Assembly (NCBI GenBank): GCA_013166835.1
Contig: JABLTI010000009.1
Span: forward strand, 1-47,593
Source of the DNA: Promethearchaeati archaeon
Lineage (GTDB): Archaea > Asgardarchaeota > Heimdallarchaeia > JABLTI01
Direction: 5' to 3'
DNA: 47,593 nt
Of this stretch, positions 33,123 to 37,157 are shown piece by piece. The position numbers and the translations under genes were made by a program. The notes under the pieces were generated by a model. That model was given only the letters and a program-made list of their open reading frames with translations. It did no database searches and was not told the origin of the DNA. Every line of letters starts with the position of its first letter. Position 1 is the stretch's first letter.

Positions 33123-33497
33123 CTAGGATGTGAAAATAAGTATTCTATCAGAGTCTTCGACGAACTCACTTAGAGCTCCAAGACCATCAAAACCTGCGCC
33201 TTCAATCAGCAAGTTTTCGTCATGTGTTCCTCGGTATTCAGCACATATCGGACAAGATGCAACTGTAATACCTTCATCAGTTAATTCCTTGAACAATTCA
33301 GCAACATTCCTATCTCGTTCATCTGATGGTTTTATAGTATTTACAGCATTGTAAACACCATCTGTATAGAGATAAATACCTGTGACCTCATGCCCTGCTT
33401 TGACAGCAGCCTTAGCCAGTTTTATCACAGTATCTGAATTCTGAAATGTGTATGGGGAAGTCATTAGTAAAAATGCAATTTTACCCATAATTTTCAC
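33123..33497 (-). CDS. TusD/DsrE-like sulfurtransferase subunit
   Basis: A 124-residue DsrE-fold protein. GKIAFLLMTSPYTFQNSDTVIKLAKAAVKAGHEVTGIYLYTDGVYN is the DsrE N-terminal core, and the persulfide-carrying Cys sits in VASCPICAEYRG near residue 80-91. In E. coli TusD, this Cys receives sulfur from TusA for tRNA 2-thiouridine synthesis. First gene of the set; the second Met (33488, MGKIAF) is an equally likely start. A TusA gene lies 3.2 kb away, so this relay may be fed in trans. Confidence 0.82.
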   Translation of the reverse strand: MKIMGKIAFLLMTSPYTFQNSDTVIKLAKAAVKAGHEVTGIYLYTDGVYNAVNTIKPSDERDRNVAELFKELTDEGITVASCPICAEYRGTHDENLLIEGAGFDGLGALSEFVEDSDRILIFTS

Positions 33498-36222: not shown

Positions 36223-36642
36223 ATGGCAGATACAAAAAAAATGGCTATTGTTGTACATTCAGGTACACTTGATTTAGCCTATCCACCATTAATGCTCGCT
36301 GCAGCAGCAGGAGCCAGTGACATGGAAGTTGATATCTTCTTCACTTTCTGGGGTTTAAACCTCTTAAAGAAGAAAGGTCTTAAACGAGCAAAGTTACCTG
36401 GTGCGTGGCGAATGGGTACAGGCATGATGAAAATGATGATCAAGCGAACTGGCATGGCAACCTTACCAGATCTTTTAGAAGGTATCCTTGAGACAGGCAA
36501 AGTAAGACTTTGGGCTTGTACTGCAACTATGGATATTATGATGGTTAAAAAGGAACAATTAATCTCAGAAGTAACAGGTTACATGGGAGCAGCAGGATTT
36601 TTAGATATTGCTGCAGATTGTGACATACAATTATTCATATAA
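36223..36642 (+). CDS. DsrE2-like (DsrE/F superfamily) membrane-associated sulfur protein
   Basis: A 139-residue protein. MAIVVHSGTLDLAYPPLMLAAAAGASDMEVDIFFTFWGLNLL is the DsrE2 signature; LWACTATMDIMMV carries the conserved Cys near residue 98 and IAADCDIQLFI a second at the end. DsrE2 proteins occur with TusA in sulfur-transfer clusters and are thought to hand persulfide to TusA. The TusA gene follows after 11 nt. The operator-like palindrome lies directly upstream. Confidence 0.85.
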   Translation: MADTKKMAIVVHSGTLDLAYPPLMLAAAAGASDMEVDIFFTFWGLNLLKKKGLKRAKLPGAWRMGTGMMKMMIKRTGMATLPDLLEGILETGKVRLWACTATMDIMMVKKEQLISEVTGYMGAAGFLDIAADCDIQLFI

Positions 36643-36653
36643 GGTGATTTTAA

Positions 36654-36893
36654 ATGACAGATATGCCAACTGCGGATAAAACAATTGATTGTCGCGACAT
36701 GCAATGTCCTATGCCAATCCTAAAAGCTAAGAAAGAGATACAAAAAATCGAAGTAGGCCAAACATTAGAAGTTCTTTCAAATGATCCTGGTTCTAAAGAA
36801 GATTTTCCACGGTGGGCTAAGCGAACTGGCAACGAATTTCTTGGCGTCTTTGACGACGGTGACACTCATTACTTTATAAAAAGAAAGGTATAA
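36654..36893 (+). CDS. tusA: TusA/SirA-family sulfur carrier
   Basis: A 79-residue protein with the TusA motif CRDMQCPMPILKAKKEIQKI (the CPxP Cys carries the persulfide) and the family core VLSNDPGSKEDFPRWAKRTGNEFLG. It passes sulfur from a desulfurase to TusDCB-type or other acceptors. It is the second gene of the pair with DsrE2; TusDCB-like genes are 3.2 kb away on the other strand, so the relay is split over two transcripts. Confidence 0.93.
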   Translation: MTDMPTADKTIDCRDMQCPMPILKAKKEIQKIEVGQTLEVLSNDPGSKEDFPRWAKRTGNEFLGVFDDGDTHYFIKRKV

Positions 36894-36974
36894 CTTATTC
36901 TCTTTTATTTTTTCTTTTTGAATTTTTTTTATTATATTTCGATAGTTATCTGATATACCATAAAAACGGTAAAC

Positions 36975-36982
36975 TTTAAAAG
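36975..36982 (+). promoter_or_regulatory. TATA box of the permuted 5S rRNA gene
   Basis: TTTAAAAG lies about 26-34 nt before the outer helix of the precursor at 37009, so transcription would begin near 37002-37008, just upstream of the first exon. Confidence 0.5.
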
Positions 36983-37008
36983 CAAAAGATGAAACGAAAG
37001 AATACGCA

Positions 37009-37157
37009 GAAACTCATCACCGGAAGTTAAGCCTTCAAACGTAGTGGTAATTACTGATCTGAGCGATCGTTCGGGAACATCATTAAGCTGCGTTGCGACG
37101 CGGTCAAAGCTGGAGGGTAACACCCGGACTCGTCCGATCCCGGAAATGGTGGGTTTC
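37009..37157 (+). other. Precursor fold of permuted 5S rRNA (bulge-helix-bulge flanks)
   Basis: The flanks pair as an 11-bp helix: GAAACTCATCA (37009-37019) with TGGTGGGTTTC (37147-37157), including two G-U pairs. It is followed inward by the 4-bp helix CCGG (37020-37023)/CCGG (37140-37143). The 3-nt bulges AAG (37024-37026) and AAA (37144-37146) sit on opposite strands, each 3' of the central helix, as in archaeal splicing-endonuclease substrates. Predicted cuts after 37025 and 37145. The two exon ends would be ligated or discarded. The helix expected on the inner side is not evident, so this is a relaxed BHB. Confidence 0.75.
37026..37145 (+). rRNA. 5S rRNA, circularly permuted (3' half encoded first)
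   Basis: Seen directly: a 3'-half sequence (starting GTTAAGCCTTC at 37026, through GTAGTGGTAATTACTGATCT and TCGGGAACATCATTAAGCTG) precedes a 5'-half sequence (ACGCGGTCAAAGCTGGAGGG, then TAACACCCGGACTCGTCCGA, ending TCCCGGAA at 37145). The natural ends are joined: CTGCGT-TGCG-ACGCGG forms helix I capped by a UNCG-type tetraloop. Joining 37145 to 37026 gives CCCGGAAGTTAAGCC, the universal 5S consensus, and exactly 120 nt. No normally ordered copy is in the window; the upstream and downstream flanks do not supply the missing half. Mature RNA could be a circle or a linear permuted molecule; mechanism is inference. Confidence 0.85.

Follow-up and report, generated by a model that had tools for sequence, protein, structure and literature searches.

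The window analysed here is a 47,593-nucleotide stretch of contig JABLTI010000009.1 from a Promethearchaeati archaeon of the Asgard phylum (GCA_013166835.1). It carries on its forward strand a 120-nucleotide (nt) 5S ribosomal RNA (rRNA) at 37026-37145, in which the 3' half of the molecule is encoded ahead of the 5' half. The gene is made up of the following parts:

37026..37145, forward strand: permuted 5S rRNA body and predicted circle, 120 nt (118.6 bits, with exact ends, under the permuted-order model R1 described below)
37026..37093, forward strand: 3' half of the 5S rRNA, which starts with GUUAAG, past the helix III bulge, and runs to the natural 3' end
37087..37104, forward strand: helix I hairpin joining the fused natural 3' and 5' ends (arms 37087-37093 and 37098-37104, 7 bp; UGCG loop 37094-37097)
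37098..37145, forward strand: 5' half of the 5S rRNA, from the natural 5' end to CCCGGAA

As a linear 5S rRNA, the locus falls short of the Rfam family RF00001, which recognizes only two disjoint pieces, 36992-37096 (16.4 bits) and 37122-37145 (model positions 27-51, 13.8 bits), against a gathering score of 38. We therefore compared two arrangements of the sequence with linear Asgard 5S loci, using 11 of the 12 that were fetched and omitting the triple locus L218. The rotated sequence (37094-37145 followed by 37026-37093) aligned with scores of 58 to 115, each higher than all 100 shuffles of the same comparison (shuffle maxima, 44 to 52), and the sequence in its transcribed order reached only 24 to 43. 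A covariance model of the permuted order (R1) was built on an alignment (A1) of 28 permuted bodies, representing 26 loci and two tandem copies from genome G033. R1 matches the window at exactly 37026-37145, with this locus among its training sequences. The order with the 3' half first, proposed in a preliminary description of this DNA, is upheld by both the rotated alignment and the fit of R1. Read as a circle, the locus is a 5S rRNA by homology and by fold.

The permuted fold is well conserved. Across the 28 homologues in A1, 97.7% of 947 cells are paired and 27 of the 34 pairs show changes on both sides, with a covariation score of 0.730 versus 0.234 for shuffled sequences and at most 0.163 when partners were slid. 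Helix I, which joins the natural ends (A1 columns 62-68 and 73-79), has 98.0% of its cells paired and four pairs changed on both sides. The UNCG tetraloop that the preliminary description placed on this helix is indeed present in the window as UGCG; among the homologues it is common but not universal (14 of 28).

A linear 5S gene elsewhere in the genome had been named at the outset as evidence that would count against the permuted gene. RF00001 finds none in the 3.56-Mb assembly at E ≤ 10, where only the two pieces at the locus match, and this assembly is 84.75% complete. An initial RF00001 search of 38 genomes (this one and 37 relatives) gave matches at the same threshold in 34, many of them split into pieces.

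To describe the taxonomic distribution, both R1 and RF00001 were run over a phylum set of 227 Asgard genomes, this one included. At E ≤ 0.01, R1 matches 158 genomes and RF00001 matches 94, of which 64 exceed the cut-off. The R1-positive genomes include 131 from 22 families, all outside the five families that hold linear 5S genes over the cut-off (59 genomes: 7 in f11, 6 in f18, 2 in f26, 1 in f27, and 43 in f28). One of the 22 families, f17, is represented by a single genome with a partial R1 match and a different permutation site. In 27 genomes of the linear families, R1 gives weak matches, which reach no more than 36.4 bits and which we interpret as cross-matches to linear 5S. A further 4 of the 227 genomes are permuted at loop C, and the remaining 33 were placed in no group. 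We read 73 permuted loci from 72 genomes as sequence; for the other R1-positive genomes, the evidence is their R1 score.

The permuted gene is present in 55 of the 58 genomes of the window's own class, Heimdallarchaeia, and also occurs in Hodarchaeota, Lokiarchaeota, Odinarchaeia, and Baldrarchaeota. The class comprising f14 to f20 (83 genomes, with Lokiarchaeota in f19) holds permuted families, the linear family f18, the loop-C variants, and the f17 locus L137. The class of f28 (47 genomes) has no R1 match at 1e-6 (0 of 47), and linear genes exceed the cut-off in 43 of its genomes. Two permuted copies (130.8 and 125.2 bits with R1) lie in the complete genome of Candidatus (Ca.) Heimdallarchaeum endolithica PR6 (CP084167.1), and the permuted order is also present in the one-contig assemblies G173 (1418269 bases) and G025. 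The search of related genomes that the preliminary description had suggested thus recovers the same order throughout most of the class and in 131 genomes outside the linear families. Since these include single-contig and complete genomes, the order is not an assembly error; we found nothing in favour of an assembly artefact or a break in a circular contig and regard the chance of either as negligible.

No genome among the 227 combines a permuted gene with a convincing linear gene of its own, with one case, G046, unsettled. Five of the 64 RF00001 hits over the cut-off fall in permuted families. Those in G023, G109, and G133 were taken as contaminant contigs, as they adjoin bacterial 23S rRNA (RF02541, 841, 385, and 486 bits, respectively); the hit in G026 (38.4 bits) overlaps the permuted gene itself; and the hit in G046 lies on a contig with an intron-bearing 5S whose owner is unsettled. 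It could be argued that the locus in the window is a pseudogene or a rearranged copy and that the working 5S gene is missing from an incomplete assembly. However, the near-universal presence of the permuted gene in the class, the nature of the five hits, and the strong compensatory change, which is not expected of pseudogenes, make this very improbable.

R1 genome searches were confined to the Asgard phylum. An order-specific DNA pattern was scanned over one genome per species, 84,980 species in all, and returned 67 stretches, 16 of which were rescored with R1. Six of the 67 are non-Asgard: L146, L173, L189, and L164 are linear 5S genes with full-length RF00001 matches (66.7 to 98.8 bits), and L174 and L187 match neither R1 nor RF00001. 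The pattern recovers only 32 of the 73 permuted loci that were read, so the scan is no proof of absence outside Asgard archaea.

We next consider the sequences that flank the permuted gene. Because the natural 5' end of the 5S rRNA is internal, transcription would begin ahead of the 3' half. The flanks contain a candidate promoter and can pair into a bulge-helix-bulge (BHB) motif, with the following features:

36974..36981, forward strand: TATA-box-like CTTTAAAA within AAACTTTAAA, a putative promoter from which the start would fall near 37005-37009
37009..37157, forward strand: predicted precursor fold of leader, permuted 5S, and trailer (outer-helix pair probability, 0.79-1.0)
37009..37019, forward strand: 5' arm of the outer helix, 11 bp with 37147-37157
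37020..37023, forward strand: BHB centre, leader CCGG, pairing with 37140-37143
37024..37026, forward strand: 5' bulge AAG, with a cut predicted after 37025 by the standard BHB rule
37140..37143, forward strand: CCGG, the 3' copy of the BHB centre and, after closure, the 3' strand of helix III (with 37124-37127)
37144..37146, forward strand: 3' bulge AAA, with a cut predicted after 37145
37147..37157, forward strand: 3' arm of the outer helix

The element AAACTTTAAA stands at approximately the same distance upstream in all six loci of family f1 that were compared, the window's own included. In the window, a 4-bp centre (CCGG/CCGG) lies between two 3-nt bulges (AAG and AAA), as in a BHB, and is bounded on its outer side by the 11-bp helix, whose innermost pair is A-U in three of the f1 loci and G-C in the other three. 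Cuts placed by the standard rule, followed by closure, rebuild CCGATCCCGGAA^GTTAAGCC, a 120-nt molecule in which the joint (^) reads CCGGAA^GUUAAG, and thus restore the 5S sequence. The preliminary description had the standard cuts release exactly 37026-37145 and the closure recreate the conserved 5S segment: the motif scan and R1 arrive at the same ends, and restoration on closure is supported in the window and its relatives alike.

Some properties of the window weigh against this BHB. No helix directly follows the inner bulge, which makes the motif a relaxed form. The leader CCGG has a second possible partner, the 5' strand of helix III, and on thermodynamic grounds alone this competition lowers the predicted probability of the CCGG/CCGG centre to ~0.16. 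In the minimum-free-energy fold of the precursor, the leader CCGGAAG completes helix III. The outer helix, centre, and bulges of the preliminary description are all present, but the centre is only modestly probable on thermodynamic grounds in this one sequence. Folding of a single precursor is not decisive, and it is the comparative evidence, rather than a single fold, that carries the BHB claim.

A free scan for the strict motif was applied to the 73 permuted loci, with arms mismatched between families as the control (n = 4672). The real loci have a median score of 27 versus 15 for the control; 50 of the 73 score higher than the 95% point of the control, and 40 higher than its 99% point. A restricted test, in which the cuts must leave the 7-nt spacing of linear 5S, was applied to the 68 of the 73 loci with the standard site (control n = 4112). 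Here the medians are 27 and 7, and the 95% point of the control (17) is exceeded by 50 of 68 loci, its 99% point (20) by 46. These results support flanks of the splicing-endonuclease type, as first described for the window, both there and in its relatives. The letters of the centre vary by group yet remain paired (CCGG/CCGG, CGUG/CACG, CGGG/CCCG, and GCCG/CGGU). Eight loci from six families (f8, f9, f10, f12, f13, and f25) all have the centre CGUG/CACG and, although letters have changed, all eight share standard pairing at 9 of the first 10 outer positions.

Not every locus conforms, and the exceptions count against the BHB reading. In the free scan, 23 of the 73 loci stay at or below the 95% point, and the best register is sometimes off the joint (e.g., L124 and L021). 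Under the 7-nt spacing rule, 18 of 68 loci do not exceed it: eight f4 loci have a 4/4 centre with an extra hairpin between the outer helix and the centre, six f3 loci reach a 4/4 centre only with a spacing of 8, and the others are two f19 loci and one each from f5 and f20 without a good BHB. In f4, the Heimdallarchaeum family, the leader hairpin is conserved in L005, L008, L011, L013, L023-L025, and L027, and its stem appears compensatory by eye.

The same loci bear on whether the transcript is spliced at all. It could instead be used as a linear permuted 5S rRNA without ligation, with its ends near loop C and helix III and the leader CCGG in place of the 3' copy. The window's leader is able to complete helix III in this manner, as its minimum-free-energy fold does, and the permuted mitochondrial 5S of brown algae provides a precedent. 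The 3' copy can form helix III 4/4 in all 68 loci, and the BHB centre is 4/4 in 49 of them (spacing-7 register). The leader can form both the BHB centre and helix III 4/4 in 22 loci, which agrees with linear use and weighs against splicing, and neither pairing in 19. However, it cannot form helix III 4/4 in 46 of the 68, and 27 of these pair 4/4 with the BHB partner (e.g., CGUG/CACG), while no locus shows the reverse pattern. The outer helices also covary even though they lie outside the 5S rRNA. That leaders fit the BHB centre without helix III in 27 loci, and never the reverse, speaks against an unspliced permuted RNA, and we consider linear use quite unlikely.

Processing at the BHB would call for an endonuclease and a ligase, and the genome encodes both, EndA (PF01974, 94 bits) and RtcB (PF01139, 571 bits). 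EndA is present in all 19 genomes searched (this one and 18 relatives), with two matches in most (the second match here is partial, at 29.6 bits), and in 82 of the 83 genomes of the class that holds Lokiarchaeota. On the other side of the balance, EndA and RtcB serve tRNA splicing as well, and EndA is found in the linear family f18 too; both genes would allow the proposed processing but do not demonstrate it.

We propose that transcription starts near 37005 from the TATA-like box and that the leader and trailer pair to form the BHB. EndA would cut after 37025 and after 37145, and RtcB would likely join the ends into a 120-nt circular 5S rRNA, which would re-form helix III with its two-A bulge. 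In place of the natural ends, the circle would have the helix I hairpin, and it would be kept and sit in the ribosome. On sequence evidence, we regard it as likely that this permuted 5S gene gives a transcript that is cut at the BHB by EndA, and probably joined by RtcB, to form a 120-nt ribosomal circle.

Alternatively, the circle could form and then be re-opened in the helix I loop to yield a 5S rRNA with ordinary ends. Permuted tRNA genes set the example, as their circles are cleaved to give standard tRNA (PMC10085705), and the 16S and 23S circles of archaea are widely believed to be re-linearised. Against this, the helix I loops are short (3 to 7 nt) and often UNCG, and the pair adjoining the loop is kept through two-sided changes in 19 of the 28 sequences, so the loop looks retained. 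An enzyme that would make such a cut was neither sought nor identified. Re-opening is rather unlikely, and we favour a circle that persists.

The permutation is not confined to the helix III bulge. Four loci in the Lokiarchaeia class (L133, L134, L135, and L136, from G117, G121, G123, and G098, respectively) are permuted in loop C, and they belong to genera g36 and g31, which also hold the usual permutation site. Three of them fit a BHB whose cuts give ACCCGGTC^CCATCCGAACCCGG, 121 nt, identical to the contiguous sequence in siblings, and the fourth was read by eye only. L137 (G083:C63, 114-252, reverse strand), from f17, apparently starts in loop B, at AAAACACCCG, and its end lies past helix II. 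Among the BHB registers of L137, one yields 121 nt, with others scoring equal or better, and the locus is provisionally listed as possibly a third permutation site, in loop B.

Tandem and interrupted genes were also observed. L006 (G033:C510) consists of two tandem permuted 5S copies, each with its own outer helix, which when read across contain a linear 5S with an intron-like spacer. L130 (G046:C117, 501-638, reverse strand) is a linear 5S with a short hairpin insertion exactly at the site of the permutation joint. This insertion, CACG.GA/A...CGTG.AA/A, resembles a BHB intron whose removal, judged by eye, would restore CACGGA^AGTTAAAC. By eye, its contig encodes RNA-polymerase-like subunits; its owner is unsettled, and a DPANN contaminant is only a query. 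Because tandem permuted copies and a linear 5S with an insertion at the same site both exist, the permuted gene could plausibly have originated when a 5S gene was duplicated in tandem and the outer halves were then lost. Separately, hairpin insertions of ~25-30 nt occur in the Lokiarchaeia class, in loop C (L111, L131, and L120), the helix I loop (L113), and helix IV (L117), and represent either expansion segments or further BHB introns.

Taking the phylum as a whole, we think it reasonably probable that in most Asgard archaea, Heimdallarchaeia and Odinarchaeia included, the tRNA-splicing machinery turns the transcript of a permuted gene into a covalently circular 5S rRNA that becomes part of the ribosome. 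Within the phylum, the permutation would have been gained, relocated, or reverted on several occasions (helix III bulge, loop C, perhaps loop B, and the linear lineages) and would serve the phylogeny of Asgard archaea and eukaryotes as a rare genomic marker.

Each element of this system has a known counterpart. The signal recognition particle (SRP) RNA gene of Thermoproteus tenax is permuted, and its canonical form had escaped identification (Plagens et al. 2015, PMC4731332). A TATA box 26 nt upstream of the start and a leader of 23 nt are described for that gene, and its circle was demonstrated by RNA-seq and Northern blotting (PMC4731332). The Asgard gene resembles it in being permuted, in its upstream TATA-like box, and in that no canonical gene was found (E ≤ 10 in the window's own assembly, 84.75% complete). 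It differs in encoding a ribosomal RNA, in spanning 22 families of one phylum, in having at least two permutation sites, and in that its circle is predicted.

The preliminary description knew of no natural permuted 5S rRNA, which requires correction, as brown-algal mitochondria are reported to have one (Valach et al. 2014; Rfam RF02547). Theirs is likewise a natural 5S gene with its halves reversed, but organellar. RF02547 (mtPerm-5S) has no match in the window's own genome at E ≤ 10, a result whose sensitivity is not established, as the control genomes have no known permuted gene. We know of no BHB reported for the brown-algal gene. In the openly licensed literature (CC0, CC BY, and CC BY-SA, which leaves bioRxiv and most subscription journals uncovered), we found no permuted 5S in a cellular genome, and permuted 5S turned up there only for organelles. 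A permuted 5S rRNA and a permuted RNA circularised through a BHB are thus each known, but we found no published case of the two combined across a cellular phylum.

Other variations of archaeal RNAs differ in kind. Circular 23S rRNA of P. furiosus is reported to stay in ribosomes, and circular 16S and 23S transcripts are reported for Asgard archaea (PMC7758197; PMC12918454). There the gene order is normal and the 23S rRNA is permuted post-transcriptionally, whereas in the Asgard 5S the gene itself is permuted, and circular processing is described as concerning 16S and 23S but not 5S (PMC12918454). Permuted tRNA genes share the reversed order of fragments and the circularisation of the transcript, but there the circle is cleaved to a standard tRNA (PMC10085705). 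Expansion segments also vary the interior of archaeal 5S rRNA, but as insertions and not as permutations; "permut" occurs nowhere in the text of the paper that describes them (PMC7812874).

PR6, with its two permuted copies, is presumably one of the genomes of Wu et al. That study states that the prediction of 5S genes failed for circularised Heimdallarchaeum genomes (PMC8813620), and the permuted gene order explains why. 5S genes are on record for Ca. Borrarchaeum and Ca. Jordarchaeum in a paper of 2021 (PMC9723677).

The 5S rRNA is among the most uniform of cellular RNAs, and here it is permuted in much of an archaeal phylum, with a product that is probably circular, in the phylum held closest to eukaryotes. 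A permuted covariance model locates 5S genes that otherwise go unpredicted. If true, our reading would extend BHB circularisation to the third rRNA. Eukaryotes have a linear nuclear 5S rRNA, and the state of the gene (linear or permuted) and its site of permutation would also supply a discrete character for the debate over where eukaryotes branch.

Two further observations concern gene arrangement. The triple locus omitted from the linear comparison, L218 (G086:C1:1399592-1401058), carries three tandem linear 5S genes ~375 bases apart in a single-contig f18 genome of 4361485 bases. In the window, genes for DsrE/DsrF-like and TusA sulfurtransferases stand just before the 5S locus, at 33123-33497 (reverse strand), 36223-36642 (forward strand), and 36654-36893 (forward strand).
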